DNA of 36,047 nt from a virus. The position numbers and the translations under genes are program-made. Where the stretch lies: IMG/VR virus record IMGVR_UViG_3300020583_000028, positions 1 to 36,047 of that record. The stretch is one strand, 5' to 3'. Position 1 is the stretch's first letter. Each line of letters begins with the position of its first letter. Below the pieces are notes generated by a model. It saw only the letters and a program-made list of their open reading frames with translations. It did no database searches and was not told where the DNA came from. Below are positions 1 to 36,047 of the stretch, piece by piece.

Positions 1-126
1 GCGCTGAATCCGAATCCCAATCCAAATGATGCTTTGACGTGGCTGGAAAACAACGCCTTGTACATCGGCGGGGCGATCGCCGCTTTGGTTTTGATCAACA
101 ATTTCACGGGAGGAAAGCGCCGATGA
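1..126 (+). CDS. C-terminal end of the anchored protein that starts at 35213
   Basis: Reading from base 1 gives the last 41 residues of the protein encoded at 35213-36046, ending at the TGA at 124-126. It contains the Asn-Pro rich linker, the Trp of the anchor motif, one hydrophobic span and the basic GGKRR tail. It is the duplicate made by the circular overlap, not a separate gene. Confidence 0.9.
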   Translation, partial: ALNPNPNPNDALTWLENNALYIGGAIAALVLINNFTGGKRR

Positions 127-127
127 C
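1..127. repeat. terminal direct repeat, left copy (circular overlap)
   Basis: Bases 1-127 are identical to 35921-36047. The length 127 equals a common maximum assembly k-mer, so this is most simply an assembler overlap on a circular genome and not a biological terminal repeat. The same open reading frame crosses the join without a break, which supports circularity. A true 127-bp terminal redundancy cannot be excluded from sequence alone. Confidence 0.95.
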
Positions 128-467
128 CAAGGAAACGAAACGGCAGGAAGCATCGCGCGAGGCGCGTGAGGATGAAGCCGAGCAGGCTTTGCAGGACGAT
201 CTAGATTTGGAAGAGACGGAAGGCGATGAAAACGACAAGGAGCGAGCGATGACCAGCACGAAAAAGCATGACGAATACAATCCCGGCGACGAAGTGGTTG
301 CCAACATCGAAGGCGAGGATTTGGACGGAGTGGTCCGTTCGGTCCAGCTTTCCAAGGGACTGGTGGACGTGCAGATTTACAAGCGCGGGCACATGAAGCA
401 TGGATTGACCGTGGCGCTCCCGCCGGAACGTCTTTCTACGCGCGGCAAAAAGGCGGCATCGGCTTAA
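123..467 (+). CDS. small acidic/basic protein with SH3-like (KOW-type) C-terminal half
   Basis: A 114-residue protein. The ATG at 123 overlaps the preceding TGA (ATGA), so I prefer it to a longer frame beginning at 39, which lies inside the previous gene. Residues 1-50 are highly charged (Glu/Asp/Lys/Arg) and probably disordered. Residues 55-105 look like a small beta barrel: a YNPGDEVVANIEG-type start followed by alternating hydrophobic strands, as in KOW/SH3-like modules. I do not recognise a named family. Its place directly behind the anchored virion-type proteins and its translational coupling suggest a virion or assembly role, by inference only. Confidence 0.75.
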   Translation: MTKETKRQEASREAREDEAEQALQDDLDLEETEGDENDKERAMTSTKKHDEYNPGDEVVANIEGEDLDGVVRSVQLSKGLVDVQIYKRGHMKHGLTVALPPERLSTRGKKAASA

Positions 468-471
468 CTCT

Positions 472-1212
472 ATGGATTCTCGATTCACAGTTCAGCATTA
501 CTCCACGCTGCGCGGCGGCGAAAAAGTACGCACCGTGCGGCGCAAGGGGCATCTGGTGCGCATCGCCTTTCCGCGCGGGCGGCGCACCACGGGTTCCTGG
601 CGGGTGATCGAAGTACTGCATCCGCGCCACGAGAATCCATGCCGACTGCCGAATCCCGCCGAGCTCGTGGTGATGATGGCCAATCCGCACGAAGGTTCCG
701 AAACGCCATCGCGCGGCCTCGCCGGGGCAAGCGAAGTGTGCGAGGAATTTCGCGGCGCGCCGTGCGAACACGTGGACACTTTCGTCGAGCCGGAACCGCG
801 CCCCGCGAATCTGGGGCATCTGGGCGCGCTCGTGGAATTGCAAGTGAACAGAAAACCCGTGGGATGGAAATGGGCCGAGCTGGATTTCACGGGGAAGGGA
901 ATCATCGTGGCGGGCAACGTGGGCGGATCGCAAATCTACTTCGTCAGCGGCGATCAGAAGGTGACGCGCGGACAGCTTTCCATGATCGGCGTGGACAATT
1001 CCAAAGAAATGATCGATCTGGGCGAGTGCATGGCCATCGCCTACCGCGCCAAGAAAGAACACGTCAACGGCATCGCCAGCGACTACGAACACAAATTCGG
1101 TGACGTGACCGGCGTGCGCCCACGGTTGATGTACGACCGCCGCGGCCCGCAAGGTCGCCTGTTTCTCGTGGGCGGGGAATACACCATCGAACCGGAAGGA
1201 ATCGTGAATTAA
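472..1212 (+). CDS. hypothetical virion-block protein, 246 aa
   Basis: Codes for 246 residues from the ATG at 472, four bases after the preceding stop. The N-terminal 50 residues are basic; the middle (about 120-200) alternates short hydrophobic strands with turns (for example GKGIIVAGNVGG, SQIYFVSGDQ), so it is probably beta rich. No signal peptide and no membrane span. I recognise no family. The stop overlaps the start of the next small gene (TAATG), indicating co-translation. The location between anchored membrane proteins and capsid candidates suggests a structural or assembly protein. Confidence 0.75.
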   Translation: MDSRFTVQHYSTLRGGEKVRTVRRKGHLVRIAFPRGRRTTGSWRVIEVLHPRHENPCRLPNPAELVVMMANPHEGSETPSRGLAGASEVCEEFRGAPCEHVDTFVEPEPRPANLGHLGALVELQVNRKPVGWKWAELDFTGKGIIVAGNVGGSQIYFVSGDQKVTRGQLSMIGVDNSKEMIDLGECMAIAYRAKKEHVNGIASDYEHKFGDVTGVRPRLMYDRRGPQGRLFLVGGEYTIEPEGIVN

Positions 1213-1361
1213 TGGACTCCACAACGCTTAAAGAAGTATTTCGTCAACTCTCAGACGATACGAATCCCAAAGCACAAGATGCTGCGTGGTGGCGGCTTCA
1301 GTTTGAATGGAGACATGAACGTCAGGAAGAAGAAAGAAACTCCAGAAAAGGTAAACACTAA
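1212..1361 (+). CDS. short charged protein, 49 aa
   Basis: A small gene with start and stop both overlapping its neighbours: its ATG shares the A of the upstream TAA, and its own TAA shares its A with the next ATG at 1361. The 49 residues contain a WWRLQFEW cluster in a helical, strongly charged context and end in a basic tail. The perfect head-to-tail overlaps are the main evidence that it is translated. Function unknown; a short amphipathic helix could bind membrane or a partner protein. Confidence 0.6.
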   Translation: MDSTTLKEVFRQLSDDTNPKAQDAAWWRLQFEWRHERQEEERNSRKGKH

Positions 1362-2092
1362 TGCTTGCGGGAACTGATCACGGAATAAGTAAGGCCAACA
1401 TCGTACTCGGTGCGGCGAAGGATTTGGATTTCTCGCTGAAAATCAAGCGCGAGCGCACGGCGGCAGGGCCAGAGCGCGGCTACAACGTGTTCGCCATGAT
1501 CGAAACGATTTATTTCGAGCCGGATGCCGATTGCCGCATGCCGCTTTACAAAGCCGCGAAAGTGGGGCGGCGCATCTACTGGCCGGAATTCGGCCCGTCG
1601 ATCGCGCGATCCATCCCCGAAGGGGATTTGCTGATCGTTTCGCGGCTGCCGATCCGTCGCGGCCTGGCTCGCTTGCCGGACGTTCCCGATCCATCACGCC
1701 CCGCGCAGAATCCTTACGAAGTGGATCAGGAAGGGCAATCGCATCTCGCGCCGGGACAAAAAGAGCACGAGGCTCCGAAGTTCAAACAACTCCTGGAAGA
1801 AATCTCTTCGGCGTGCTTCCTGAATTTCCTGATTTTCCATCCCGTCTCGCAAATCGTGTGCGTGACGGCGGGGCGGGGCGCGACCTGGGGCGCTTTGGGC
1901 AGCTACAAGATGCCGATTTCTTCGCTCTCCAGTTTTGACGGCACGAAAATGGCTTTACTCGTCGATCCCTACACCGGCGAAATGTTTTTCAAGGGCGGCC
2001 GGTACGATCTGGGGGATCAAATGGATTTGAATGCGGTGCGGCGCGATTCCTCCGTCGAACCGCTGGTGAATTTGGGAGCCGGAGGTCAATAG
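1361..2092 (+). CDS. hypothetical virion-block protein, 243 aa
   Basis: Codes for 243 residues; ATG overlaps the upstream TAA. Beta-rich pattern with short hydrophobic strands (IETIYFEPD, GDLLIVSRLPI, FLIFHPVSQIVCVTAG) and a Pro-rich middle section around residues 105-135. No signal peptide or membrane span. I do not recognise the family. It closes a run of four tightly coupled genes (123-2092) that ends at the strong hairpin beginning at its own stop codon, so the four probably form one translational unit ahead of the capsid genes. Confidence 0.75.
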   Translation: MLAGTDHGISKANIVLGAAKDLDFSLKIKRERTAAGPERGYNVFAMIETIYFEPDADCRMPLYKAAKVGRRIYWPEFGPSIARSIPEGDLLIVSRLPIRRGLARLPDVPDPSRPAQNPYEVDQEGQSHLAPGQKEHEAPKFKQLLEEISSACFLNFLIFHPVSQIVCVTAGRGATWGALGSYKMPISSLSSFDGTKMALLVDPYTGEMFFKGGRYDLGDQMDLNAVRRDSSVEPLVNLGAGGQ

Positions 2093-2121: not shown

Positions 2122-2217
2122 GAATTCAAAATGATTGTTCGGCTCGTCAATCCGACGTATGACGCGCGCCGGCGTCACGCGGGAAGAACCCACAACGGCG
2201 GGGAAGGAGGATTTTTT

Positions 2218-2718
2218 ATGGCAAGACATCATCATCATCGTCACCACCGGCGCCGCAATCCCTTTGCCGCGGGCAGCATCAATCAACTCGCGGTGAAGGT
2301 TGCCGGCGCTTTGGGCGGCGCGATCGCCGCGTCCGCCATTCCCAACATGGTCTCCCCGAGCCTCAATACGGGATGGGCCGGCGTGGGCATGGCGCTCGTG
2401 GTCGGATTCGGCGGGGCGTTTCTTTTGAAAGGCATGTCGCAAGACCTTTCTGAAGGCGTGCTCATCGGCGGATCGGTGCAAGCCGTTTCCCGCGCGATCA
2501 CCATCGTCACGGGCAAAACGCTGCTCACCGCTTCGCTCGGCCAGTACGGCCCGCTCAACTTCACGATCCCGACGCCGGCGTATTCGCCGGGCGCGCCGGC
2601 GATCGCCGCGTCCGCTTCCAAGACCGGGCCATCGAAGGGCGCAGCGGTAACACCCGCGGCGGCCGCAGCGATGGGCATGCTTGGACCGCGCCGCGCGTAT
2701 TCGAAGTATGTGGCGTAA
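2218..2718 (+). CDS. His/Arg-tailed small membrane protein, likely virion component
   Basis: A 166-residue protein. The ATG at 2218 follows a textbook ribosome binding site (GGAAGGAGG, 6-7 bases upstream), so an in-frame extension back to 2131 is rejected. The N-terminus is a His/Arg-rich basic stretch (residues 3-13), followed by small-residue-rich hydrophobic segments at about 22-42, 48-70 and 80-95 (GALGGAIAAS, GVGMALVVGFGGAFLL), consistent with two or three membrane helices. The C-terminal third is Ala/Pro rich. The basic N-terminus could contact DNA under an internal membrane. It sits directly before the major capsid candidate and has the strongest ribosome site of the region, as expected for an abundant virion protein. 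Confidence 0.8.
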   Translation: MARHHHHRHHRRRNPFAAGSINQLAVKVAGALGGAIAASAIPNMVSPSLNTGWAGVGMALVVGFGGAFLLKGMSQDLSEGVLIGGSVQAVSRAITIVTGKTLLTASLGQYGPLNFTIPTPAYSPGAPAIAASASKTGPSKGAAVTPAAAAAMGMLGPRRAYSKYVA

Positions 2719-2810: not shown

Positions 2811-3575
2811 ATGCAACTTCTTAGCAAGGTAAAGAGATTCGCTCATTTGCCGGAAATTTCGGCGCATGAAATCGGCCGGCCCCGCTTCCGCTTGAAAAAC
2901 ATGCTGGCGGCAGGGTTGGGAGATTTCGTGGTTCAGCCGGAATGGGATTATTACGGCGTGGCGGTTTCCACGGCGGTAGTGAAGCAAACGCTGTTCTCGA
3001 TCGTGCAGAACAACAACTTCACCATCACCGGCGGCGCCACGGTTGCGAAAACCCTGCAGATGACCAGCATGGTGCAGCCGAACCAGTTGCAGGCCCCCGA
3101 ACGGATGCTCGTTCGCGGGATCACCTGCGTGCTGGACAATCTGTGCAACCAGACGGACGCCATCAAGTTCGGAAGCCAGACCATTGTGAACTTTTTCATC
3201 TCCACGAAATCGTTCTTTGTGGTCGCGCACTTCCTGAAACTTCCGGCGGGCGGCGGCATCTGGGCGCAGCAATTCGGCGCCACGGCGGCCAACACCATCA
3301 TCGGGCCGGTAGGCAACGGGTTGCCCAACGAGCACCAGGGATTCCGCTTGACGGATCCCGGATGCCCAGGCACTCCCGGCGTCGACCAGTTCCCGGAAAT
3401 CGACGGCATTTTGATTGCCCAGCAACAGGCGTTCAAAGTGGAAGTCGATCCCACGCTGGCGGCCTGGGCGCAAGCCACGGGCTTCACCACCAACGCGAAC
3501 AATACCGTGCCCATCGGCACGGGCATCAATGCGTGGGTGTATCTGGAAGGGCAGAAGGCACGAGCCGTTCTGTAG
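2811..3575 (+). CDS. major capsid protein candidate, 254 aa
   Basis: Start at 2811 is set by AAGGAG ten bases upstream. The 254 residues are neutral, beta rich and lack any signal or membrane span. The order of motifs is what I associate with capsid proteins of tailless phages: an N-terminal basic arm; TxxMVQPNQLQAPERMLVRGI (about residues 84-105); a strand ending FFISTKSFF; a glycine-rich LPAGGGIW turn (about 143); NGLPNE; and a C-terminal VYLEGQKAR strand. That points to a jelly-roll type fold, but this is pattern recognition, not a search. It is preceded by the strongly translated membrane protein and followed by three more beta-rich proteins, the expected neighbourhood of capsid genes. 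Confidence 0.6.
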   Translation: MQLLSKVKRFAHLPEISAHEIGRPRFRLKNMLAAGLGDFVVQPEWDYYGVAVSTAVVKQTLFSIVQNNNFTITGGATVAKTLQMTSMVQPNQLQAPERMLVRGITCVLDNLCNQTDAIKFGSQTIVNFFISTKSFFVVAHFLKLPAGGGIWAQQFGATAANTIIGPVGNGLPNEHQGFRLTDPGCPGTPGVDQFPEIDGILIAQQQAFKVEVDPTLAAWAQATGFTTNANNTVPIGTGINAWVYLEGQKARAVL

Positions 3576-3695: not shown

Positions 3696-4256
3696 GTGAA
3701 AACCATTCGTACGATTTTCGATCTAGATCAGCACGCGCTCGATCTGGCGAACGAGATGCCGGTAGCGATGGGAAGTTCGCAAGTGCCGGCACTCACGCAG
3801 GATCAAATGAATGCGCTGCAAGCCGATCCGCAAATCATGGAACTGGGCGGCCAGCTATACATCGCCAAATTGTTTCACTACATCGTCAATCTGACGCATG
3901 CGGGGAACGACACCCAGGCGCAATCGTTCCAGATTGACAGCGACGCCGATTTTCAGCTTTTGATGCTGATCGGCAGCCGCACCAGCAACGCCCTCAGCAT
4001 TCAGGTGACGGAAGGCGGCGCCGGCGGGCTGGCCTGGCAGAGCGCTCCCGTGAACTTCGACAATTTCGTGGGCACGGCGCAACTGCCGTTCCCGGCGGGG
4101 CTGATTCCCCAACTCATGCCCAAAAAGCGCTCGTACAAGGTCACGACGATTGACACGAGCGGCACGGCGAACACCGTGCAAGTGGATTTCTGGGGCTACA
4201 AGCTGTATCCGGCGGCGATGGCCGCGCAGCTTGGGGCGTTGCCAAGTCCAAACTAG
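3696..4256 (+). CDS. jelly-roll-like capsid or vertex protein A, 186 aa
   Basis: I choose the GTG at 3696 because GGGGAAGGGAA lies 7-8 bases upstream; the frame is open back to 3579 but the upstream residues are Arg-rich and uncharacteristic. The 120 bases 3576-3695 then form a leader in which I see nothing else. The mature 186 residues show DADFQLLMLIGSRTSN, then a VTEGG turn, then an IPQLMPKKRSYKVTT strand and a final VDFWGYKLYP strand. The same order occurs in the next gene (DFWLVAVMGRAS, ITEEEG, VRIPHF, LCMFGYSTWW), so the two look like diverged tandem duplicates. Two small single-jelly-roll proteins side by side are known in some membrane-containing tailless phages and archaeal viruses. 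Confidence 0.6.
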   Translation: MKTIRTIFDLDQHALDLANEMPVAMGSSQVPALTQDQMNALQADPQIMELGGQLYIAKLFHYIVNLTHAGNDTQAQSFQIDSDADFQLLMLIGSRTSNALSIQVTEGGAGGLAWQSAPVNFDNFVGTAQLPFPAGLIPQLMPKKRSYKVTTIDTSGTANTVQVDFWGYKLYPAAMAAQLGALPSPN

Positions 4257-4328: not shown

Positions 4329-4832
4329 ATGATCAACCCGTGGATACAAGGACGAGTGCCGGGCGCGCCGATGAATCCCACCCTCGGCGCCTGGCAGAAT
4401 CGCCGGAAACTGGCCTCGGCGGCGTGGACGCTGCCGCAGTGGGTGCGGCTCTCCCTGCACAGCGCGCATTTATTCTGGTACCAATTTCCGGAATTGTCGC
4501 TCACCGCCGGGCAAACCGATTTGACGCGCATCACGGTAACGGAGGATTTTTGGCTCGTGGCCGTGATGGGCCGCGCGTCCGTGGCCAGCATCGGCAATCA
4601 AGGCAGCTTCCGCTTTCAAATCACCGAAGAGGAAGGCGCCTACAAATATTCCAAGTACGGGCAGAACCAATCCAATTTCGCGCCCATCGCGCAGGAGCCC
4701 GGCTTGGTGCGCATCCCGCACTTCATCGCCGCGGGATCGCCGGTAGTCTGCAAGATTCAAAATCTCAGCGGCAGCACCACGAACATCGTGGACCTGTGCA
4801 TGTTCGGCTATTCGACGTGGTGGAGGCAGTAG
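4329..4832 (+). CDS. jelly-roll-like capsid or vertex protein B, 167 aa
   Basis: ATG at 4329 with GGAG ten bases upstream, contributed by the repeat array. The 167 residues have a helical or extended N-terminus with a WTLPQWVRLS segment, then a beta-rich core from about residue 60: DFWLVAVMGRAS, GSFRFQITEEEG, a polar NQSNFAPIAQEPG loop, VRIPHFIAAGSPVVCKIQN and a last LCMFGYSTWW strand. The core parallels the protein encoded just upstream, suggesting tandem duplication. No signal peptide or membrane span. Probably a minor or second capsid protein; function inferred from order and fold pattern only. Confidence 0.6.
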   Translation: MINPWIQGRVPGAPMNPTLGAWQNRRKLASAAWTLPQWVRLSLHSAHLFWYQFPELSLTAGQTDLTRITVTEDFWLVAVMGRASVASIGNQGSFRFQITEEEGAYKYSKYGQNQSNFAPIAQEPGLVRIPHFIAAGSPVVCKIQNLSGSTTNIVDLCMFGYSTWWRQ

Positions 4833-4910: not shown

Positions 4911-5624
4911 ATGGCTTACGACAAACTAGACACCGGACCTTCGGAAGCGTCGGGACAACCGAACATCACGGACGCGGCCGCATCGTCCATTCGTGGGTCG
5001 ACGTGGCCCTACAAGCTGCACGCGGATCGCAGCATGGCGCCGAAGCTGATCCTGCGCCCGCCGCCCACGGAGCCGGTTTCGACCGATCCCACCATCGCCG
5101 CGATTCAGGATACGCAAAGCGTTCTGCAGCAAATCCAGCGCGCCACGCGTCTGATTTCCGCGCCCTGGCTGATCGAGCCGCCGGATTCGGAATCGTTTCG
5201 AAACACGGCAGGCGTGGCGCTCCCAGCCATCAGCGCCACGGTTTTCACGGTGGTCGCCCAAGTGACCTGTCCGCCAGGCCGCAACGGCGTGATCAAGTGG
5301 ATCGCCAACGTGATCGTGGGCGGCGCCTGGGCGGATTTTTCCGGGGATGCCGTGTGGCAGATCGTCCGCAACCCACCGGCGGGCGTGTATACCGGCGGCA
5401 ATGCGGAAAGAAATTACGAAAAGGTGCTGGCCTCGCTCGGCCTGATCAACAATCCCTCGCGCATTTCCGGCATTCGCATCTTTGAAAACGACGTGATTCA
5501 GTGGGTCGTGCGCAACAACGCCTTGCCCACGGGCGTGAATGCCGGCGCGCTCCTCAGCGGCTATTTCTATCCGCGCACCTGGGATGATCAATTCGACGCG
5601 TCAGACAATCCGGTAGCGTGGTAG
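4911..5624 (+). CDS. beta-rich capsid-associated or spike-base protein, 237 aa
   Basis: Codes for 237 residues. Residues 1-60 are polar and Pro-rich; 60-90 include a helical AIQDTQSVLQQIQRATRLIS stretch; from about 105 on the pattern is a compact beta domain (TCPPGRNGVIKWIANVI, AVWQIVRNP, ISGIRIFENDVIQWVVRNN) that ends with LLSGYFYPR. This resembles the single-domain jelly-roll decoration or vertex proteins found near capsid genes, but I cannot assign a family. The start lies seven bases after a family A repeat and has no clear ribosome site, like several genes here. Followed within eight bases by a small gene. Confidence 0.6.
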   Translation: MAYDKLDTGPSEASGQPNITDAAASSIRGSTWPYKLHADRSMAPKLILRPPPTEPVSTDPTIAAIQDTQSVLQQIQRATRLISAPWLIEPPDSESFRNTAGVALPAISATVFTVVAQVTCPPGRNGVIKWIANVIVGGAWADFSGDAVWQIVRNPPAGVYTGGNAERNYEKVLASLGLINNPSRISGIRIFENDVIQWVVRNNALPTGVNAGALLSGYFYPRTWDDQFDASDNPVAW

Positions 5625-5787: not shown

Positions 5788-6951
5788 ATGGCTCGAAAGA
5801 TGAACATTCCGAAGGCCAAACAGATTCAAGGGTTACGCAAGGCCATCGCCAACAGGAAAACGCCGCGGCAGTTCATTCCCTCGATGAAAAAGCGCCTGGC
5901 GAAACTCATGGCCTGCATCCTCTTCGCGCTGATTGCATCGTCGGCTAGGGCGCAGACTCCTGTTTCCCTCGTTCCCACGCAGCAAATCTTGGCTGCATCT
6001 GGCACGGCTTGTACGGGTACCGGCCAATCGTTCACGGTAAACAATCGGAATCAGACGCAACATACCGCCACTCTGGTACTTTCCGGATCAGCTACAAGCA
6101 GCAAACTGCAAATTCAAGGCGTGGACAGTTCTGGAAATACGTTCATTATTTCACCAACGGCCCAGGCGGGGCAGTTGTTCACGGCAGTAAGCGCAATTGT
6201 AAGCGCATCCGGGTATTATCCGACAGTCAATGTGCTGGTAACCTGCCCCATTGGGATAACTTTCACTCTGACGTATTCAGGTTCCCAAACTACGCCGGTC
6301 ATTCTTGGCGGAACTCAGTTCCTAAGCCTGATAGACCAACAGCTTTTCACCGCAATTAGCGGCGCTGGAAATGTTGGCACCGCGGTTTTCGGCACGCCCT
6401 TCGGCAATTCGTCGGGCATCCTGGTGTTCACTTATCTCAGCAGTCCTGTTTCGGGATCGATTTTAGAAGTGATGTGCACTTCCACCACTACGGGATTGAT
6501 GACGCAGTTTAATTTCCCCATCGCCAACCTCTCTCCAGGAGTGCAAGTGTTCAAGGTGCCCCCGGCTACCTGCCCCCAAGTGCAAGTCGTTTATGTAAGC
6601 GGCGGTGCGGCAGGGAACATTTCGTTTGAATATATTTTCGATTCGCCGGGCGCAGCGGTAAACGAAACGCAAGGAAGCTACACGCACATCACGGGAACGA
6701 CGGCCACGGCGGTAAAAACCGTGCCGGGCACGCTCGTAAGCGTGACGGTCAATACTCCCGCTGTGGGAACGATCAGCGTTTTCGATCTTGCGACCGCGGC
6801 TTGCACGGGCACGCCATCCACGAATACGGTTGCGGTGATCACGGCCACGGCGACGGCTCCCATTGCCACGCTTCTATACAACGTGGGGTTGTTGAACGGC
6901 ATTTGCGTGAAGGCTTCCGCAGCGATGGATTTCACGGTTTCGAGTCAGTAG
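5788..6951 (+). CDS. secreted or surface beta-rich protein, spike/adhesin-like, 387 aa
   Basis: The start at 5788 has CGGAG nine bases upstream. Residues 1-32 are a very basic extension (KAKQIQGLRKAIANRKTPRQ) before a classical signal peptide: MKKRLAKL, a hydrophobic run, then SSARAQ near residue 56. Without the extension, Met33 would start a perfect Sec signal, so an internal start is possible, though it has no ribosome site. The mature part is almost entirely Ser/Thr/Gly/Val-rich short strands with scattered Cys (C-rich TACTGTG, LVTCPIG, ATCPQ, TAACTG), typical of extracellular beta-sandwich or fibre proteins. It opens a group of three large proteins likely to contact the host surface. Confidence 0.65.
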   Translation: MARKMNIPKAKQIQGLRKAIANRKTPRQFIPSMKKRLAKLMACILFALIASSARAQTPVSLVPTQQILAASGTACTGTGQSFTVNNRNQTQHTATLVLSGSATSSKLQIQGVDSSGNTFIISPTAQAGQLFTAVSAIVSASGYYPTVNVLVTCPIGITFTLTYSGSQTTPVILGGTQFLSLIDQQLFTAISGAGNVGTAVFGTPFGNSSGILVFTYLSSPVSGSILEVMCTSTTTGLMTQFNFPIANLSPGVQVFKVPPATCPQVQVVYVSGGAAGNISFEYIFDSPGAAVNETQGSYTHITGTTATAVKTVPGTLVSVTVNTPAVGTISVFDLATAACTGTPSTNTVAVITATATAPIATLLYNVGLLNGICVKASAAMDFTVSSQ

Positions 6952-14416: not shown

Positions 14417-14631
14417 TGCCCGTGTCCCTCACTGTTGACAAGCTGGAAGCGGACGGCACGATTCGCGTGCGGCATACTTTCTTCGGTGACACAATCGAGG
14501 AATGCGAACGGCTGCGCGATCAGCACGGCAGCGGTTGCCAGGCGTTCGGCCCGGCGCTCGATCGCGACATGGTGATCGAGGAAGAGGAAGAAATCGACGA
14601 AATCCCGGAGTGGTCCGACGATGACGAGTAG
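14416..14631 (+). CDS. small acidic-tailed protein, 71 aa
   Basis: The ATG overlaps the glycosyltransferase stop (TGATG). Residues 1-45 look like a small beta domain (VSLTVDKLEADGTIRVRHTFFG); residues 52-71 are almost continuous Glu/Asp. Its 3' end overlaps the start of the transglycosylase by 11 bases. Unknown function; an acidic tail could mimic DNA or chaperone a basic partner, but that is speculation. Confidence 0.65.
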   Translation: MPVSLTVDKLEADGTIRVRHTFFGDTIEECERLRDQHGSGCQAFGPALDRDMVIEEEEEIDEIPEWSDDDE

Positions 14632-15166
14632 TGACATTTCGGCTTTGATTCTTTCCACGGCGACGGCCTATGGCGTCGATCCGCGGCTGGCGCTGGAAGT
14701 AGCCATGCAGGAATCTGGCTTGGACAATTCGCGCATCAGTTCCGCCGGGGCCATCGGTATTTTTCAGCTTGAACCCGCGACGGCCGCCGACCTGGGCGTC
14801 GATCCCACCGATCCCACGCAAAACATTCAGGGCGGCGTGCACTACCTCTCCCAAATGCTCTCTAGATACTCCGGGAACGTGAAGGAAGCCCTGGGCGCTT
14901 ACAATTGGGGTCCGGGGAACATGGACGCGGCCATCGCCGCGCACGGCGCCGCCTGGATCGTCTACGCGCCCCTGGAGACGCAGGATTACATCCAGACGAT
15001 CATGGGAAACATCGGCAGCCAATACACAGTGAGCGTGGGCAATCCACTACCGCTTCCCGGAGTACCCTCGACGCCAGGCGCGCCGTCTGGATGGTCGGTG
15101 GGCACGGCCTTCTGGATCGGCGGGGCGATCCTGGCCGGATGGTTTTTATTCAGTCTTTTGGAATGA
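14621..15166 (+). CDS. SLT-type lytic transglycosylase with C-terminal membrane anchor, 181 aa
   Basis: Cleaves peptidoglycan glycan strands by transglycosylation. All landmarks of the lysozyme-like SLT domain are visible: catalytic Glu31 in AMQESGLDN, the GAIGIFQLEPATAADLG motif (about 43-60), NIQGGVHYLSQML (about 68-81) and ALGAYNWGPGNM (about 90-101). After a Pro-rich linker a single hydrophobic span (AFWIGGAILAGWFLFSLL) closes the protein. A membrane-anchored transglycosylase is the design of the PRD1 virion enzyme used for DNA entry, so I infer a virion-associated entry role rather than lysis. Confidence 0.88.
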   Translation: MTSSDISALILSTATAYGVDPRLALEVAMQESGLDNSRISSAGAIGIFQLEPATAADLGVDPTDPTQNIQGGVHYLSQMLSRYSGNVKEALGAYNWGPGNMDAAIAAHGAAWIVYAPLETQDYIQTIMGNIGSQYTVSVGNPLPLPGVPSTPGAPSGWSVGTAFWIGGAILAGWFLFSLLE

Positions 15167-15175: not shown

Positions 15176-15598
15176 ATGAGCCTTTTCGACGGCATTCCCG
15201 ATACCCCAACGCCACAGAAGGCAACTGGGTTAACAGGGACCGAAGCGAATCGGGCGCACAGTAGCGGAGCCGATCAACTCCGCGAATCAGCGCCCACAGT
15301 AGCGACGGTCCCTCGCGAAAAACTGCCACAAACACCGCTGGATGCCATCGAACAAGGCATCGTGAGAAAGCTGCAAGGGTACGTGACCTTCGTTCCCGCC
15401 AGTTCCCACAAACGATTTATCCACGATTTGATCCCGGATCGATCGCAACTGAGCGACCGCGGGCGGGCCTACCTGGCCTACATCGCCCACCGCTACAGAC
15501 GGCAATGGAAAGCCACGCACGAGGAATTTTGTTGGATCGTGCGCTGGGCGAGTTACGGTACACTTCCCAGACCGAGGCCGGATTCGCAATGCCGATAG
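15176..15598 (+). CDS. hypothetical basic protein, 140 aa
   Basis: Starts nine bases after the transglycosylase stop and overlaps the start of the lysozyme. Residues 1-50 are polar and low complexity; residues 55-140 are basic and helical (RKLQGYVTFVPASSHKRFIHDL, YLAYIAHRYRRQW, HEEFCWIVRWASYG). No membrane span. Possibly DNA binding or a lysis regulator; no family recognised. Confidence 0.65.
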   Translation: MSLFDGIPDTPTPQKATGLTGTEANRAHSSGADQLRESAPTVATVPREKLPQTPLDAIEQGIVRKLQGYVTFVPASSHKRFIHDLIPDRSQLSDRGRAYLAYIAHRYRRQWKATHEEFCWIVRWASYGTLPRPRPDSQCR

Positions 15599-22473: not shown

Positions 22474-22502
22474 GAATCACCAGTCACGAATCACCAATCA
22501 CG
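22470..22502. repeat. family C repeat, between ATPase and the next gene
   Basis: TCACGAATCACCAGTCACGAATCACC units. It begins just at the ATPase stop codon (22498) and ends in the GTG start of the 71-residue gene (22473). Confidence 0.8.
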
Positions 22503-27739: not shown

Positions 27740-29107
27740 TTAGGGAAGGGAACCTATCTTTTTCTTAATGCGGTACACTTGGTAGCGGCTTAAATGTAGA
27801 TCGTCGGCTATTTCCGTTACTTTCATGCCCATCCCGAACATTTCGATGGCCCGTTTTTCCACCACGTCTTGCAATGCCCGGTGCGTGAACACCGATCCGC
27901 CCAGGGAATCGCTCTCCAGTCGCACTTCGAATGGCAGGACGGCATCGGCATCGTCGCCGCGGTATTTTTCGCAGTGGACTTCGCAGCGCAAAAGCTGATC
28001 CGGGGAATAATCGGAGGGATGGCGCATCATCAAAATCGCGTCTAGAAAATCTTCCCGCTTGGAAGTGCCGCGCTGCGCGCCGCTTTTTCCGGCGTGGTGC
28101 AAAAGTTGCGTAGTGATTCCCTTGTGCCGCAATTCGATCAGCCATTCCTGGGTAGACGCCCAGCCCTCTTCGTCCTCTTTCCCGGTGCGGCACAGGGCGC
28201 TGATATTGTCCAGAACGAGAAACGTGCCTTCCTGCAAATGATCCTCGATCAACCGTTGGCCTTGCAATTCGGCAATGTTGGGCGCGCGCTTGTCGATGGT
28301 GCGGTTGATGAAGTTCATCATGCCTTCTTCCGGCGGTTGCATCCCGTGCGCCTTCACGATCCCTTGCCAGCGGGCTTGCAATTGATTGTGAGGGAGCTCG
28401 CCGTCCACGTACACCACGCGGCGCGCTTTGGGAATTCTCCACTGGCACCACTTCGCCGCGCCGATGGAAATGGAATAGCAGCCGTCCAGCATGAAGTAGG
28501 TTTTTCCGCAACCGCGCCAAGCGTAGAGCATTCCCAATCCTTGCGTGGGTAGGATGGGATCGATCACGAATTCCAGCGGACTTGTGTCCATCGTTAGCAG
28601 TTCGCGTCCGTCGATCAATCGCAGATGGTTTCCGTTGCCATTCGTGGACGCGCGGACGGTGTTCTGAAACTCGGCGTACAGATCATCGTAACTCGTGAAG
28701 TTGTTAGCGGCTCCCGTGACCATTTTTTCGCCGGCGCGCATCATTTGCCGGCGCAAGGATTTGTCGTGGACGATGCTGGCGTAGTGCGACACATTCGATA
28801 CGGAAGGAACTCCATCCATCAATTTGGAAAGGTATCCCACGCCGCCGGCCAGTTCTGTTTTGCGCTGCTCTTCCAGGCGATTGAACAGAGTCAACGTGTC
28901 GATTGCGGTTCCGGCTTCGTGAAGGAAAATCATTTCGTGGAAAATGATTTGGTTTTCAGGCAGCGAAAAATCCGCGGATTTCAGTTTGTCGGTCGCGGCC
29001 TTAAATGCGGCGTCGGTGGGATCGATCAGGATAGCGCCAAGCACGGCCTTTTCCGCTTCGATATTTTTCGGCAGTTCGGGAGCGGGTTGCGCGGCGCTTT
29101 GGGTCAT
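27740..29107 (-). CDS. DnaB-like replicative helicase with RecA-like ATPase and C-terminal HTH, 455 aa
   Basis: Residues 14-130 match the DnaB N-terminal helical domain (IEAEKAVLGAILIDPT, LPENQIIFHEM, IDTLTLFNRLEE, GGVGYLSKLMDGVPS). Residues 185-400 are a RecA-type ATPase of the RepA/AAA_25 style: Walker A LYAWRGCGKTYF, VVYVDGELP, Walker B FLVLDNIS, then TQLLHHAGKSG. So it combines a DnaB-type front with a RepA-type core. Residues 420-452 form a helix-turn-helix ending (EMFGMGMKVTEIADDLHLSRYQVYRIKKK), which may bind the neighbouring origin-like repeats. It unwinds DNA for replication and would load on the virus origin. Start overlaps TGA of an unlikely upstream frame (ATGA); no ribosome site. 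Confidence 0.85.
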   Translation of the reverse strand: MTQSAAQPAPELPKNIEAEKAVLGAILIDPTDAAFKAATDKLKSADFSLPENQIIFHEMIFLHEAGTAIDTLTLFNRLEEQRKTELAGGVGYLSKLMDGVPSVSNVSHYASIVHDKSLRRQMMRAGEKMVTGAANNFTSYDDLYAEFQNTVRASTNGNGNHLRLIDGRELLTMDTSPLEFVIDPILPTQGLGMLYAWRGCGKTYFMLDGCYSISIGAAKWCQWRIPKARRVVYVDGELPHNQLQARWQGIVKAHGMQPPEEGMMNFINRTIDKRAPNIAELQGQRLIEDHLQEGTFLVLDNISALCRTGKEDEEGWASTQEWLIELRHKGITTQLLHHAGKSGAQRGTSKREDFLDAILMMRHPSDYSPDQLLRCEVHCEKYRGDDADAVLPFEVRLESDSLGGSVFTHRALQDVVEKRAIEMFGMGMKVTEIADDLHLSRYQVYRIKKKIGSLP

Positions 29108-29855: not shown

Positions 29856-31169
29856 CTACACCACTCCCGCGCTGGCCGTGGCGGATTTTGTTTCCGCGGC
29901 GGCGGCTTCTTTGGCGATGCGCAAAAAATCCTCGATGATTTTCGGCAGGCGGGGATCGTCGGCCACTTGCGTCAAGATGTCCGCGCCGAAGTATTGCATC
30001 TGGGCTTCGCGGCTCTTGAAAAAGGCGAGGAGTTGTTCCTTGGAAAATTTCGTCAACTCTTCCAGGATTTCCGGCCAGGCATTGCGTAGATAGTCGTACA
30101 TATCCTGGCCATCGGATTCAGGGTCTTTGATGCCGGCGACCAGGCGATGCATGTGGGCTTGCGCGATGATGGCTTGGGCCACTTCGGGAGAGACGGGCAC
30201 GCCAGCGGCAGAGGAAGGAGCGGCCCCGACTTGTGTTGAAGATGTCGGGGCCGCCGCTGGCGTAGGGGACGACGGGTTTACATCGATCACGTTGGCATCA
30301 CCGGGCCGGATTTCGCCGCGCTGTAATCGCACGGTGCGCTCCTGGGCTTCGGAGTTCAGCCGGAATTCGTGCAGGCCGTTCACTAGGCGGTCCACCAGCA
30401 TGGGCAGATTGTTGGCGAACGTGGCGGCCAGGTCCGCCTTGGGCGCGCCGCTGGTGATCAGCCCGGAAGTTTTTAGCGTGGTGATCAGCGCCAGGATTTC
30501 TTCCACGCCTTTTTTTTCCGGCGAGCCGATCAGTCCCAATTCTTTCAGTGTGCGGATCGTGTCGAGCAGTCCGTGTTCCTGATTTCCGCCGCCGAGGATT
30601 TCTTTGGCGTTGCGCAGTGTGGCCAGCGGGTCTTGCGTGGGAGGAATCTGGGTTTTGATCAGTTCCATCGCTTGCGTGGCCGCCGCGCGCATCATTTCCA
30701 TCTGCATGCGCATGAATTCGGGATTGGCGTACATGCGCATGGCTTCCAGCGCCACGGAATTTGTTCCATCAGCCTGTGCGGTGCGTGGCACGCTGTTCAC
30801 GAGTGGCACACCTTCCAAATCGACTTGCCACTTGGCTACCAAATTGTGTTTTTTCGGCGGCCCGAGCATCCACAGTATGAATTTTCCCCCGCCGAAGCGC
30901 GAACGGATATCTTCCTCGGTGAATGGACCGTTGAAAACATTGTCCACTGGGGCGGCGCCGCGTTCCCACTTTTCACCGGCGCGATAGACGCGCACCAGGT
31001 GCTCGCTCCATTGCTCCGCAGTTAGATCGTTCACGACATCTTCCCACGGGCGATTATAGAAACGGCCAGCCTGGGCATCATTGGCAGCGTCTATTCTGGG
31101 AGGTAAAACCTCAGATTCGATTGTTTTGCGAAATCGCGTACCGGGAGCCGGTTGCGTCATAGTGGCCAC
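29856..31169 (-). CDS. first leftward gene, unknown protein with helical core, 437 aa
   Basis: Start at GTG 31169 is favoured by GAGGAT six bases upstream; ATG at 31160 is an alternative. Residues 40-75 are helical. At 90-125 there is a short beta module with RSRFGGGKFILWMLGPP and WQVDLEG, a pattern I have met in virus-encoded proteins but cannot name. Residues 130-300 are helical, rich in Met, Ala and Leu (RMYANPEFMRMQMEMMRAAATQ, ILALITTLKTSGLI). Residues 300-335 form a Ser/Pro/Ala linker, followed by a helical C-terminal domain. As the first gene of the early strand it may be a replication or scaffolding factor. No catalytic motif identified. Confidence 0.7.
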   Translation of the reverse strand: MATMTQPAPGTRFRKTIESEVLPPRIDAANDAQAGRFYNRPWEDVVNDLTAEQWSEHLVRVYRAGEKWERGAAPVDNVFNGPFTEEDIRSRFGGGKFILWMLGPPKKHNLVAKWQVDLEGVPLVNSVPRTAQADGTNSVALEAMRMYANPEFMRMQMEMMRAAATQAMELIKTQIPPTQDPLATLRNAKEILGGGNQEHGLLDTIRTLKELGLIGSPEKKGVEEILALITTLKTSGLITSGAPKADLAATFANNLPMLVDRLVNGLHEFRLNSEAQERTVRLQRGEIRPGDANVIDVNPSSPTPAAAPTSSTQVGAAPSSAAGVPVSPEVAQAIIAQAHMHRLVAGIKDPESDGQDMYDYLRNAWPEILEELTKFSKEQLLAFFKSREAQMQYFGADILTQVADDPRLPKIIEDFLRIAKEAAAAETKSATASAGVV

Positions 31170-31226: not shown

Positions 31227-32162
31227 ATGTCACGCACGCATCGCGGTGTTGCACCCGATGAAATAACGGGTGCGCATGTCCACGATGTTCTTTCGCGCGG
31301 AAAGAACTTCGGGCATCCTTCGCAGTGCATGGGAATTTTCCCGATTGCCGACCGTTCCGGATTGCTTTTCTCCGCGCCGCTGGCCTGGGGCGACGATGGC
31401 ACCGCGCAGACCATCGCGGTGCTGCGCGGCCTGGTGGACGATGCCTGGAAAGACCCTTTCGTCAACCGCACGGCCATCGAAATCATCCGCAACGCCGGGG
31501 CGCAGCCGCACGATTCGCAGGCGCAGATCGCCGCCATCTACGATTACGCGCGCTCGTTTTATTTCGTGAACGATCCCATCACCAAGGAAGCTTTGCGTCC
31601 CACGCGCGAGCTGCTGCAATTGAAGGCCGGGGATTGCGACGATATCAACGCCAATGTTTTGCCCGCGCTGCTCGGCTCCATCGGCTTTGAAACGCGTCTA
31701 GTGACCGTGGCCAGCGATCCGCGCATGCCGGATTATTTTTCGCACGTCTACTGCGAAGTTTTCATTGACGGCGAATGGTATCCCCTGGACGCCGCGCGCC
31801 CCGGCGCGGTGATCGGCGTGGCGCCGGAATCTTTCTTCCGCCGGCAATGGTGGAGTCTCACCGACGATTCCCACGAGGATTATCCCGGCGGGGCGGACGG
31901 CACCATGTCCGGCTATCACCCGCAAACGCTGCGCGGGCTCGCCGGCGTCACTTCCGACGTGGCGGCGATCCTTACGAGTGCGTCCGGCGCGCTGAAATCC
32001 GTGGGCGGGCAGACGGTACGGCCAGTGGTGGGTCCGGCAATCGGGCCGGGGGGCGCGGCGATGTCCGTGCCGGCGCAAACTTCCTTCTTTTCCACGTCCA
32101 CCGGCGAATTGCTTTTCCTGGCGGCGGTGATCGGCGGAATCTGGTGGTTGGCGAGCGAATGA
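31227..32162 (+). CDS. transglutaminase-like cysteine-hydrolase domain protein with C-terminal anchor, 311 aa
   Basis: The frame opens at ATG 31227, with AAAAGG upstream. A transglutaminase/protease-like domain spans about 85-210, with the triad visible: Cys137 in LKAGDCDDIN, His173 in YFSHVYCEVF and Asp188 in WYPLDAARPG. This fold includes cysteine proteases, amidases and cross-linking enzymes. The C-terminal 80 residues are Ala/Gly/Pro-rich and end in a membrane span (LLFLAAVIGGIWWLAS). I infer a virion membrane enzyme that matures or cross-links capsid proteins or opens the host wall. It leads the rightward block. A later ATG (residue 35) is also possible. Confidence 0.8.
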   Translation: MSRTHRGVAPDEITGAHVHDVLSRGKNFGHPSQCMGIFPIADRSGLLFSAPLAWGDDGTAQTIAVLRGLVDDAWKDPFVNRTAIEIIRNAGAQPHDSQAQIAAIYDYARSFYFVNDPITKEALRPTRELLQLKAGDCDDINANVLPALLGSIGFETRLVTVASDPRMPDYFSHVYCEVFIDGEWYPLDAARPGAVIGVAPESFFRRQWWSLTDDSHEDYPGGADGTMSGYHPQTLRGLAGVTSDVAAILTSASGALKSVGGQTVRPVVGPAIGPGGAAMSVPAQTSFFSTSTGELLFLAAVIGGIWWLASE

Positions 32163-32263
32163 TTATGGTGACGATTCGGCGGACGGCGCGCATCGGATTC
32201 TGGTGGACGCGATTTTTGCGGCGCATCTGGGAATACTCGGACAAGGGATTTTTGCAGCCATGA
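32159..32263 (+). CDS. tiny Trp/Arg-rich peptide, 34 aa
   Basis: An ATG at 32159 overlaps the upstream TGA, and the peptide's own TGA overlaps the ATG at 32260, so it is linked at both ends to real genes. The 34 residues contain RIGFWWTRFLRRIWEY, a cationic amphipathic segment typical of membrane-active or membrane-surface peptides. The double overlap is the main evidence for translation. Could be a minor virion component or a membrane-perturbing peptide. Confidence 0.5.
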   Translation: MIMVTIRRTARIGFWWTRFLRRIWEYSDKGFLQP

Positions 32264-33234
32264 GTTACGCTCCGCTATCGACGCGAAATAAGAACGGGCT
32301 GCATCCGAATTTTCGCGGACTCGGTTTTCTGGGCGATTCCTCCACTTCGCTTTCTCCGATGGACGCGCTGAATAAAGCCCTGCAAGCGTATTCCAGGTTC
32401 AACGTGAATCCCGCGCCGTCCGGGAATTCGGGATGGTTGGCCACGCTGGAGCCTTTTGTTGCTTCCGGCCAGATGCCTGCAACCCCGCCCATCGGCCCGG
32501 ATTGTTCGGGTATTCAGACGCAGCCGCTGAATCTTTTTTCTACGGTAAGCGGTCTTGTGCTTGGCACTGCCGCTGCTGGGTCTAGTATTTATCAGCAACA
32601 GCAGAACAAAAATAGCGACAATCAAAATTCATCGAACATGGGAACGATATTGGGGGCGGCGGTTTTAGGTGCTGGTTTAATCATCAGCGTGATCAACATG
32701 ATTTTTCAGCATCATGCCGCAGCGGTGCAGCGTGACCTGAATTTCGGATGCAGCGTGATCCCCGCCGTCAACAACGCTTTTTCCGTGATTTTCAAAGCGG
32801 TGCAAAGCGGACAAATGAATCCGGGGGATGCGGCCAGTGCGCTGCCGGAAATTTATTCGCAGTACATGAGCGCCGGCGGTGCCTCGGGAAGCGCTTCCGG
32901 TCCATCCAGCATTCCCGGCGGCGGCGCGGCAATCAACGATAGTCCCTACTGCAACAGCAATTGTTTGTTGAGCATTTGCCTGTACGCGATGGTCCTCTAT
33001 TGGCAAGAACAATTTCAGACGCAGGCCGCGCAAGCTGCGGCATCAGCCGCTCAAGTTGCGGCGGCATCTGCAGCACCGGATACGCCCCCGGCTGTGCAAA
33101 CTTCGCAGGGCGGTTCGCAAGTTCCCGAAGTGGTGGGCGGCATCCCTCCGTCGCCAGCGGGATTTTCTCTTTCGCAAATTCCGGCCTGGGGATGGATCGC
33201 GCTGGCCGCCGTAGGCGCCTGGGCGGTGCTGTGA
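32260..33234 (+). CDS. multi-span virion-type protein with PNFRGLG module, 324 aa
   Basis: ATG at 32260 overlaps the upstream stop; the longer frame from 32203 is rejected. Residues 6-22 are the module LSTRNKNGLHPNFRGLG, shared with the next protein. Hydrophobic segments at about 100-120 and 124-145 (MGTILGAAVLGAGLIISVINMIF) and a C-terminal WGWIALAAVGAWAVL give three spans. A Ser/Gly/Ala-rich part, an Asn/Cys loop (YCNSNCLL) and an Ala/Gln-rich helix come between. Likely a virion membrane protein. Confidence 0.7.
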   Translation: MSYAPLSTRNKNGLHPNFRGLGFLGDSSTSLSPMDALNKALQAYSRFNVNPAPSGNSGWLATLEPFVASGQMPATPPIGPDCSGIQTQPLNLFSTVSGLVLGTAAAGSSIYQQQQNKNSDNQNSSNMGTILGAAVLGAGLIISVINMIFQHHAAAVQRDLNFGCSVIPAVNNAFSVIFKAVQSGQMNPGDAASALPEIYSQYMSAGGASGSASGPSSIPGGGAAINDSPYCNSNCLLSICLYAMVLYWQEQFQTQAAQAAASAAQVAAASAAPDTPPAVQTSQGGSQVPEVVGGIPPSPAGFSLSQIPAWGWIALAAVGAWAVL

Positions 33235-33475: not shown

Positions 33476-33820
33476 ATGGCCTACGCGCGCCTATCCACGA
33501 AAAACGGCAACGGGCTGAATCCGAATTTCCGCGGACTTGGCGCGTACGGTCTGCTTTCCACGCGCAACAAAAACGCCATACATCCCAATTTTCGCGGCCT
33601 GAGCGACTTGGGAGATTCGCCGCTCACGAATATTTCGTTCGGCCCCGGCGGACAATTCGCCATCAGCACGGCCACTACGCCCACGTCGACCAGCATTTGG
33701 GATCAGATGCTCACCTGGATGGGGGAATCCACGTTCATACCCGGGATGCCGAATTCGATTTTCGCCATCGGCGCGGGAGTTTTCGTTCTGGCTAAAGTTT
33801 TTGGCGGGAGGCATCGCTAA
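33476..33820 (+). CDS. anchored protein with two PNFRGL modules, 114 aa
   Basis: ATG at 33476 with GGAG ten bases upstream. Residues 6-22 and 27-42 are two tandem copies of LSTxNxNxxxPNFRGL, the module that opens the previous protein. The C-terminus belongs to the shared anchor family: TWMGESTFIPGMPN, a hydrophobic span and a basic GGRHR end. Between them lies a Ser/Thr/Gly linker. One of the four members with the tripartite tail. Confidence 0.75.
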   Translation: MAYARLSTKNGNGLNPNFRGLGAYGLLSTRNKNAIHPNFRGLSDLGDSPLTNISFGPGGQFAISTATTPTSTSIWDQMLTWMGESTFIPGMPNSIFAIGAGVFVLAKVFGGRHR

Positions 33821-33849: not shown

Positions 33850-34617
33850 ATGTATGCGGAACTTAATTCGCCGTTGCCAGGATTGACCGCATCTCCCACG
33901 GGCGAACGGTGTTGCGGCATGCGCGGCGCGTTCCTGGGAATGCTGGGCCAAGATCCCATCGCATTCGATACCACTTCCACGGACGTTACCGGCGGACTCA
34001 TTGCTCCAGACAATCCCGCGCCGCCGATCATCGATTTGGGTCCGCCTGCCCCGATCGATATGCCTGTTTTGCCGCTGCCGAATCAGCTTTCTCCGTCGCT
34101 GGAGACGATGTATCCGGCCACTGTGGGCAACGAATTCACCAGCAACGGCGACGGCACCTATACCAACATTCAGACCGGGCAGACAGTGCCGTACACCATC
34201 GCGGAACAGATTACCGCGGCAACCTCTGGGACGGCGACGGCGAACCTGCAGACCACCGCGACGGGACAAGGACAAGATATAAACATCACCGATCCGAACA
34301 GCGGCGTGACGAATACGGTGAACACCAATAACTTAAGCGTGGCCGCGCAGGGTTTGCAGGCCGCGGGCCAACTGGTGACGGCTGCAGGAAAACTCACCAC
34401 GCAAGGGCAAACGCTTTTGAATGGCGGCAATTTGTACAAATCGCCATCAACAACGTCGCCTTTCGGAAACATTTCCGGCGCGATGAGTTCACTTACGTCG
34501 TGGTTTACCGGCTCCACGATGATTCCGGGGCTGCCGAATATGGTGATCATCGGCGGGATCGTGGCGGCGGCTTTCATTTTGCCGGCAATGATGTCCGGAA
34601 AGAAGCGTAAACGATGA
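33850..34617 (+). CDS. anchored virion-type protein, 255 aa
   Basis: No strong ribosome site before ATG 33850. Residues 1-80 are Pro/Asp-rich and unstructured; 100-170 have a low-complexity Thr/Asn-rich beta-like section; residues 170-200 (AAQGLQAAGQLVTAAGKLTTQGQ) form a helical repeat shared with the next protein; the end SSLTSWFTGSTMIPGLPN, membrane span, SGKKRKR is the shared anchor. A Cys-Cys pair near residue 21 is unusual. Overlaps the next start by ATGA. Confidence 0.7.
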   Translation: MYAELNSPLPGLTASPTGERCCGMRGAFLGMLGQDPIAFDTTSTDVTGGLIAPDNPAPPIIDLGPPAPIDMPVLPLPNQLSPSLETMYPATVGNEFTSNGDGTYTNIQTGQTVPYTIAEQITAATSGTATANLQTTATGQGQDINITDPNSGVTNTVNTNNLSVAAQGLQAAGQLVTAAGKLTTQGQTLLNGGNLYKSPSTTSPFGNISGAMSSLTSWFTGSTMIPGLPNMVIIGGIVAAAFILPAMMSGKKRKR

Positions 34618-35216
34618 TCGCGCCGAATCATCCGTCGCTGGGCACGCCGATTTATTTCGGATTCCCTCCGGGGTTTCATCCGGCTGCAACACCTCCGCAG
34701 CCCGCGTTGCCGATTCACGAAGTACCGCCGCCGATTGTTCCCCCTGTGCAATCTCGCGTCCCGCCGGAACAGCTTCCGGTAGAAGTGCAAGGCCCCGTCG
34801 TGGCCACGGGGCAAACGGTTTCCACTTCGGGATCGCCCGGCGGCTTGCCGGTGGAGTTGACGGGCATCGTCGATCCTGTGACGGGGATCACCTATTCCGG
34901 GTACCTCACCGGGGATGCGCAAACGCTGTATCAATCCGGTTCGCTCTTGACCGGGGGAAATAAATTGACGCCGCAAGGCTCTGCGCTCGCCGCGCAGGGA
35001 GATTTAATTTCCGGCACACCCGCTCCCAGCGCCGCGCAAATCGCGCAAGGTTCGGCCAGCGCTGCCGCGCCATCGTCGGGATTTTCGTTTTCATCGATCA
35101 CGAATTGGCTTTCCGAGGAAACTTTGTTCGCCGGATACCCCAACGGCCTCGTGGCTGCGGCGGCAGTAATCGCGGCGTCGTGGCTTCTGGGCGGGAAGAA
35201 AGGGCGGCGGCGATGA
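34614..35216 (+). CDS. anchored virion-type protein, paralogue, 200 aa
   Basis: ATG overlaps the upstream stop (ATGA). The N-terminus MIAPNHPSLG is paralleled by MIFPNHPAFE in the next protein. The middle is Pro-rich, then a helix LYQSGSLLTGGNKLTPQGSAL like that of the preceding protein. The C-terminus is the shared anchor: NWLSEETLFAGYPN, hydrophobic span, GGKKGRRR. The shared parts at both ends and in the middle indicate duplication and module exchange among these genes. Confidence 0.7.
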   Translation: MIAPNHPSLGTPIYFGFPPGFHPAATPPQPALPIHEVPPPIVPPVQSRVPPEQLPVEVQGPVVATGQTVSTSGSPGGLPVELTGIVDPVTGITYSGYLTGDAQTLYQSGSLLTGGNKLTPQGSALAAQGDLISGTPAPSAAQIAQGSASAAAPSSGFSFSSITNWLSEETLFAGYPNGLVAAAAVIAASWLLGGKKGRRR

Positions 35217-36046
35217 TTTTTCCGAACCATCCCGCGTTTGAGGAACTTCGGTCCGGAATGGGCATGGGTTATCAACCCGGCGCGCACGCCATGCTCGGCT
35301 ATCAACCCGGCGCGCATGCGATGCTGGGATACCACGCGGGATCGCACGGTAATCTTGGCACTGTTTCTGACGCACAGATGCAAGCAGCTTGGGATGCCGG
35401 TCTTGACGGCAACACAATCGATGCGTTGAGCGCTGCGGGCGCTACGGATGCTGACATTCAAGCGTTGATGGCTGGCACGACTGACGTAGCTACTCTGATG
35501 GCGAAATATGCAGGATTGCAAACCACCGAAGGGACTACAGTCACGGCCACTACGTCACACACGACGCCATCTCCCACGCCAACTAACCCGGCTCAATCTC
35601 CTCCCGGTAGTACGCTGCTCTATACGGTCTCTTACAACCCAGTGAAAGCATTTTCGACGGCATCGTCTGTGATTTCACAGATCGCCGCATTGTTGCCCTC
35701 TCACGGCATGGCGATGGCGACGAACGCGGTTCAACAATCGGGACTGACATCGCAAGCCTCTTTTACGATGACCATTCTTGACAGCGTGGGGCATCAATAC
35801 CTGAGCGATGCGCAATCCGTGCTCGATGGTTTACTGAATCAATTCACCAACAACGGGAAACTCACTTCTAGCGTTACGCTCGTTTCCGCAGGGACAACAG
35901 CGAGCGGAACTCCCGGAGGAGCGCTGAATCCGAATCCCAATCCAAATGATGCTTTGACGTGGCTGGAAAACAACGCCTTGTACATCGGCGGGGCGATCGC
36001 CGCTTTGGTTTTGATCAACAATTTCACGGGAGGAAAGCGCCGATGA
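35213..36046 (+). CDS. anchored virion-type protein with decapeptide repeats, 277 aa (continues across the circle join)
   Basis: Start at ATG 35213 (ATGA overlap, with AAAGGG nearby); the longer frame from 35105 is a shadow. MIFPNHPAFE opens it. Residues 19-48 are three tandem decapeptides (GYQPGAHAML twice, then GYHAGSHGNL). Residues 50-90 are helical (QAAWDAGLDGNTIDALSAAG); the middle is Thr/Ser/Pro-rich; 130-210 is an alpha/beta-looking soluble domain; a short Asn-Pro linker leads to the anchor end ALTWLENNALYIGG, hydrophobic span and GGKRR. The end is duplicated at 1-126 because of the circular overlap. Confidence 0.75.
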   Translation: MIFPNHPAFEELRSGMGMGYQPGAHAMLGYQPGAHAMLGYHAGSHGNLGTVSDAQMQAAWDAGLDGNTIDALSAAGATDADIQALMAGTTDVATLMAKYAGLQTTEGTTVTATTSHTTPSPTPTNPAQSPPGSTLLYTVSYNPVKAFSTASSVISQIAALLPSHGMAMATNAVQQSGLTSQASFTMTILDSVGHQYLSDAQSVLDGLLNQFTNNGKLTSSVTLVSAGTTASGTPGGALNPNPNPNDALTWLENNALYIGGAIAALVLINNFTGGKRR

Positions 36047-36047
36047 C
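35921..36047. repeat. terminal direct repeat, right copy
   Basis: Identical to bases 1-127. It includes the C-terminus of the decapeptide-repeat protein and the first bases of the gene at 123. Confidence 0.95.

Follow-up and report, generated by a model that had tools for sequence, protein, structure and literature searches.

The described systems closest to the genome analysed here include the Halopanivirales (Helvetiavirae; SH1, HHIV-2, HCIV-1, SNJ1 and P23-77), with which it would share small single-jelly-roll shell proteins (predicted here for g7), an FtsK/HerA-like ATPase, the lack of a tail and probably an internal membrane (suggested here by membrane anchors), and among them the Simuloviridae, with which it would also share a circular genome and a temperate life. 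The two differ in that Halopanivirales infect haloarchaea or Thermus and show no detectable sequence similarity to the present genome, that Simuloviridae genomes measure 16-19 kb (PMC12642351) against 36 kb here, and that the present lineage is distinguished by four shell-type genes in one block, a DnaB helicase and integration at dif. The prokaryotic double-jelly-roll viruses (PRD1, PM2, Bam35, STIV and Odin groups) are likewise tailless, in some cases encode a lytic transglycosylase, and mostly possess an FtsK-HerA ATPase (some have no ATPase at all); their main capsid protein, however, contains two jelly rolls, whereas the candidate shell proteins described below (g5-g8) have lengths of 167-254 aa and no sequence match to them, and their genomes measure 7-18 kb (PMC5894146). 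The first-pass annotation had regarded the present genome as unusually large for a tailless virus, and its ~36 kb indeed lie above both of these size ranges. Integration at the host dif site, probably by XerCD, is a trait in common with the non-tailed vibriophage NO16, for which the use of host XerCD has been proposed (PMC9966536), and with the filamentous CTXphi; NO16 differs by its 10.6 kb genome, and the genes and hosts of both are unrelated to those considered here. The Tunturi viruses have a host phylum in common with the lineage, Acidobacteriota, but all five isolates are tailed, with genomes of 63-309 kb (PMC11924767).

The window (i.e. the whole stretch of DNA analysed, 36,047 nt, constituting the single IMG/VR record IMGVR_UViG_3300020583_000028) is a complete genome that closes into a circle of 35,920 bp, the remaining 127 nt being a k-mer overlap, as its first 127 bases (1..127, unstranded) recur exactly and in direct orientation as its last 127 (35921-36047); the large size claimed at first pass is thereby borne out. 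We rejected the interpretation of this feature as a biological terminal repeat: 11 related records end in repeats of 77, 97, 99, 119 or 127 bases, with differing cut points, and since these lengths fit assembler k-mers, the genomes are either circles (of 35,920 bp in the case of the window) or circularly permuted. A scan with g5 recovered 10 loci (85-100% identity), and subsequent scans with the ATPase and with the g5 and g8 profiles extended the lineage to 33 records harboring g5 and/or g8 (the window and 32 others, two proviruses counted), in which the closed records (n=12, window counted) span 32-37 kb and the near-complete free genomes ~32-39 kb. The order g5>g6>g8 was confirmed in 29 of the 33 records, the remaining four being cut by contig or fetch ends. 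Most complete members carry g2 (472..1212, plus strand), g5, g6, g8, g27, g37 (29856..31169, minus strand), g38 and g39, of which the core proteins g2 and g37 have homologues in both proviruses as well; a further lineage protein, g3 (1361..2092, plus strand), is found in provirus 2 too. Neither g5 nor the ATPase nor a paralogue of g5 matched any of 50,697 phage records, and the profiles A1, A5 and A6, used in a similarity test of capsid proteins and ATPase, had no significant match in the PDB. The window genome belongs to a group of bacterial viruses that had not been seen before.

The tandem capsid-like genes that had been noticed at 2811, 3696, 4329 and 4911 are correctly placed, and form a plus-strand block (g5, 2811..3575; g6, 3696..4256; g7, 4329..4832; g8, 4911..5624) whose order is kept across the lineage; g6 begins at a GTG codon inside a longer ORF (3579-4256). 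Within this block, g5 is the best conserved protein and the candidate major capsid protein, g8 is conserved, and g6 and g7 are small capsid-type paralogues of one family (hhalign E 2e-6; 1e-46 with deeper alignments), to which hhalign linked neither g5 nor g8. The gene upstream, g4 (2131..2718, plus strand), encodes a His/Arg-rich N terminus and a hydrophobic segment, and may represent a nucleic-acid- or membrane-associated virion protein. Structure prediction for the block, which the first-pass annotation had proposed as a check, succeeded in part: the AlphaFold2 model of g7 (54 sequences, pLDDT 75) has some eight strands within residues 47-162 and was classified as a jelly-roll type sandwich (Foldseek, VIA-align), while that of g5 (14 sequences) reached a pLDDT of 29 and was discarded. 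In VIA-align comparisons the g7 model matched capsid proteins of SH1 (6qt9_C: Z 8.3, rmsd 3.2, 112 aligned), HHIV-2 (6h82_I: Z 8.2, rmsd 4.4, 122 aligned), HCIV-1 (6h9c_K: Z 7.9, rmsd 5.0, 126 aligned), satellite panicum mosaic virus (Z 7.9, rmsd 3.8, 116 aligned) and SPV1 (Z 7.7, rmsd 3.8, 121 aligned), but folds other than capsids matched it as well (peptidylglycine monooxygenase PHM, Z 9.9; nucleoplasmins, ~8; the phage baseplate domain 9f4b_F2, Z 8.6). As unrelated jelly rolls score equal to capsid proteins, the model supports a jelly-roll fold for g7 and not descent from a named virus family. The same holds for the mark of Helvetiavirae, two single-jelly-roll major capsid proteins: the g7 score of Z ~8 to SH1 and HHIV-2 is equalled by unrelated folds, and the second candidate is the g5 model of pLDDT 29. 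No protein of the block exceeds 254 aa, and all four are probably too short to accommodate two jelly rolls; none of them matched a capsid family in Pfam or PHROGs. Extra, strongly diverged g5-like genes occur outside the capsid block in four relatives (G004:6905-7528; G008:14702-15322 and 15879-16427; G010:28190-29149; G007:3581-4267).

The membrane-spanning proteins reported at first pass are confirmed by hydropathy, which places a membrane-like segment in 14 window proteins. C-terminal anchors are present in 8 of the 36 window proteins of at least 100 aa (for five outgroup contigs the figure is 16 of 284 ORFs), and are conserved among the homologues of g17 (8/8), g38 (12/12), g39 (14/15), g40 (11/11), g41 (11/11), g42 (10/11) and g43 (11/11). 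Six of these anchored proteins are encoded consecutively on the plus strand, a short distance upstream of the capsid block in the circular map: the transglutaminase-like core protein g38 (31227..32162), the core membrane protein g39 (32203..33234), and g40 (33476..33820), g41 (33850..34617), g42 (34614..35216) and g43 (35213..36046). Three members of this run (g40, g42 and g43; 33476-35330) have the short N-terminal motifs HPNFRGLG and NHP in common, and g43 contains a near-perfect 30-nt tandem repeat (35267-35326), a pattern that suggests short tags for binding the capsid or a partner. On the other side of the capsid block (5788-11630, plus strand) lie three proteins that mostly have N-terminal signal-like segments, namely the secreted-type g9 (5788..6951; candidate spike or surface protein), the long and conserved g10 (6986..9574; candidate spike or receptor binder) and the variable, secreted-type g11 (9555..11630; candidate receptor binder), and each provirus has similar proteins at the corresponding position. 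That presumed virion spikes should be exported is unexpected for a virus whose particles are assembled within the cell. By comparison, g6-g8 have neither a signal-like segment nor a C-terminal anchor, while for g5 an N-terminal segment is absent and 3 of 15 homologues show a C-terminal segment.

Among the enzymes, the membrane-anchored transglycosylase of the first-pass annotation stands: g17 (14621..15166, plus strand) is an SLT lytic transglycosylase (Pfam 6e-23) with a C-terminal membrane segment. Profile matches furthermore identified a phage lysozyme (endolysin; g19, 15505..16008, plus strand) and a DnaB-type replicative helicase with a C-terminal HTH (g36, 27740..29107, minus strand). 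An N6_N4 DNA methyltransferase (g25, 18999..19994) and an SF2/SNF2-type helicase (g26, 19985..21388), both assigned by profile and on the minus strand, form a pair (18999-21388) that is poorly conserved in the lineage and whose segments are 67% and 47% identical (tblastn) in contig G028; it is possibly exchanged cargo. We do not claim a defence system, the PADLOC matches listed being methyltransferases and one DpdE model.

The candidate packaging motor is the P-loop ATPase g27 (22498..24324, minus strand; motif and profiles), whose family has an invariant P-loop (GxTQxSGKTT) followed downstream by PE instead of DE. Its initial description as HerA/FtsK-like rests on this P-loop and on FtsK_SpoIIIE matches in 4 of 23 members, which are weak (best E 0.005); as a marker it proved weaker than supposed, given the occurrence of the family in tailed phages with a terminase of their own and its absence from one provirus. 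PHROG 2666, which is labelled terminase large subunit, matches 11 of the 23 members (best E 2e-7), the match being limited to the region around residues 182-344, and profiles for the TerL ATPase and nuclease do not match the family. The ATPase is encoded in every complete free genome examined; homologues with 34-45% identity, however, lie beside terminase and/or portal genes in contigs G019, G023, G026 and G028, and provirus 2 has neither an ATPase of this family nor a convincing P-loop ORF. We consequently rejected the use of this ATPase for recognising tailless viruses; that it packages DNA in the free viruses is likely by elimination, and unproven. An ATPase tree in which provirus 1 grouped with G028 and distant MAG sequences was set aside, since long branches meet there. 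Provirus 2 may be defective, or may package its DNA without a viral ATPase.

The acidobacterial host suggested from the sequence found support in two proviruses (31.3 and 27.1 kb) located in acidobacterial chromosomes, and the lineage appears to lie dormant in the chromosomes of this soil phylum; the window itself is not integrated. Provirus 1 was detected by the ATPase profile in an Acidobacteria MAG contig (PJLO01000003.1, 336 kb), contains homologues of g2, g5, g6, g8, g17, g37, g38, g40 and the ATPase, and is delimited by two copies of a ~103-bp repeat that lie 31.3 kb apart within host genes (an Rfam search of its left att flank gave nothing credible). Provirus 2 (G298:C10, L161-L163), the only further one among 396 acidobacterial genomes, was recognised by its g5 profile match (E 1e-60), and is a 27.1-kb element between copies of an 18-bp repeat. 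One of its boundaries reads AACGTCTGATAA CGTATA TTATGTAAAAT, by form a standard dif site and the sole match in the 5.3 Mb host genome, and the other consists of the first arm and the centre of dif only. Provirus 1 shows a half-site similar to that of provirus 2, and a search of its genome at 3 mismatches found no dif elsewhere. No PF00589 integrase was detected in provirus 1 or in six viral records tested, nor any integrase in provirus 2, for which the check consisted of inspecting the ORF list only. Provirus 2 thus has the traits of an Xer-dependent integrative element (dif insertion, a half-site repeat as flank and an ORF list free of integrases). As it sits exactly in the single dif of its host, and as provirus 1 has no PF00589 protein, it is most likely the host XerCD that integrates these elements. 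The XerC half-site of the proviruses had no good match in the free genomes, and no attP was found in the window. In the vicinity of both proviruses are truB and a rhomboid gene, named here by reading their sequences and not by a profile match.

Taken together, we consider it probable that the window represents the entire circular genome of a dsDNA virus of Acidobacteriota that is temperate, tailless and icosahedral, with a jelly-roll shell and probably an internal membrane. An alternative would be a tailed phage with a terminase, portal and capsid too diverged to be recognised, and with g6 and g7 as tail or receptor-binding beta domains; the g7 model does match phage baseplate domains (9eui_Q in addition to 9f4b_F2), and the ATPase is common to the lineage and to tailed phages. 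The marks of Caudoviricetes, however, are missing in searches that are able to find them: PF03354 and PF17289 (TerL) and PF04860 (portal) were silent in 20 lineage genomes, and matched the four outgroup contigs that share the ATPase and lack the capsid block, so that the first-pass reading of a genome with no recognisable terminase, portal or tail gene is upheld. The PHROGs and Pfam matches listed for the window include no terminase, portal or tail family and, for PHROGs, no tape measure, tail tube or protease; the best 25 of 52 PHROGs matches for its 43 proteins are confined to helicase, methyltransferase, lysozyme/transglycosylase-type or unnamed families, and labels naming a tail accompany only matches to lysozyme/SLT-type enzymes. 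The capsid-block proteins of the relatives and proviruses matched no capsid, portal or terminase family in PHROGs at E 0.01. Moreover, long proteins in the structural half are limited to the signal-bearing g10 and g11, and the block of anchored proteins was not seen in tailed outgroups. We therefore regard a tailed phage as highly improbable.

A plasmid-like or integrative element that is no virus, with the beta proteins as exported surface factors and the ATPase as a translocase that moves DNA in partition or transfer, would account for the signal-bearing g9-g11, the ParB-like proteins of the proviruses, the circular genome, the Xer-dependent integration and the want of a named capsid match; such an element is nonetheless unlikely in view of the lysozyme and the anchored SLT protein, the lack of secretion or conjugation genes in family scans, and a fixed structural block, with g5-g8 free of signal peptides, that recurs in 33 records of narrow size (~32-39 kb). 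The claim of a tailless, membrane-type virus calls for a distinction, as the gene content speaks for its tailless part and the g7 model for a jelly roll, while an internal lipid membrane is suggested by the anchors. These are assigned by hydropathy alone and indicate association with a membrane, not location in the virion, and the anchored proteins of a tailless virus without internal membrane could instead function at the host envelope, in lysis, egress or superinfection exclusion. To this possibility we likewise attach a low probability: seven anchored proteins are conserved, six of them in the run g38-g43 next to the capsid block, a similar run exists in provirus 1, and the Simuloviridae, which have single-jelly-roll shells, possess an internal membrane (PMC12642351). 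A membrane beneath the protein shell, of the kind that known tailless membrane viruses have, would fit these proteins and is the more probable reading.

If the genome is that of a tailless membrane virus, g5 would be the main shell protein, with g6/g7 and g8 as additional components of the shell or its vertices, the anchored proteins would reside in a lipid layer beneath the shell, and g9-g11 would form spikes or bind receptors. At entry the SLT protein (g17) would open the cell wall, DnaB (g36) would recruit host replication, the P-loop ATPase (g27) would fill the shell with DNA, the lysozyme (g19) would help release, and host XerCD would insert the circular genome at dif. We know of no earlier tailless virus of Acidobacteriota, and these would accordingly be, as far as known, the first (the five isolates of one isolate study being all tailed); the genome size known for tailless dsDNA viruses of prokaryotes with jelly-roll shells would be about doubled, concrete proviruses (one at dif) would be at hand for testing, and the separation of an FtsK/HerA-like ATPase from a tailless lifestyle would bear on the classification of viruses by such ATPases. 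The lineage works like known tailless viruses, yet fits no named group on present evidence, and is possibly a new lineage of high rank. More tentatively, and with some doubt on our part, it may merit at least family or order rank, with a single-jelly-roll shell that originated or diverged separately from those of Helvetiavirae and Bamfordvirae and can accommodate 36 kb, and a motor that either is dispensable or has its counterpart in tailed phages.

The window also contains five dispersed GGTTnGA-type heptamer repeats, all intergenic (4841-4868, 21510-21537, 29120-29147, 29402-29429 and 29441-29468), as against none in shuffled sequences. Matches to these repeats number 50 and 7 in two acidobacterial genomes (G108 and G124, respectively), and occur in 2 of 200 genomes of a control phylum (one with a single match, the other with 14 in three tandem arrays); they may mark the host clade.
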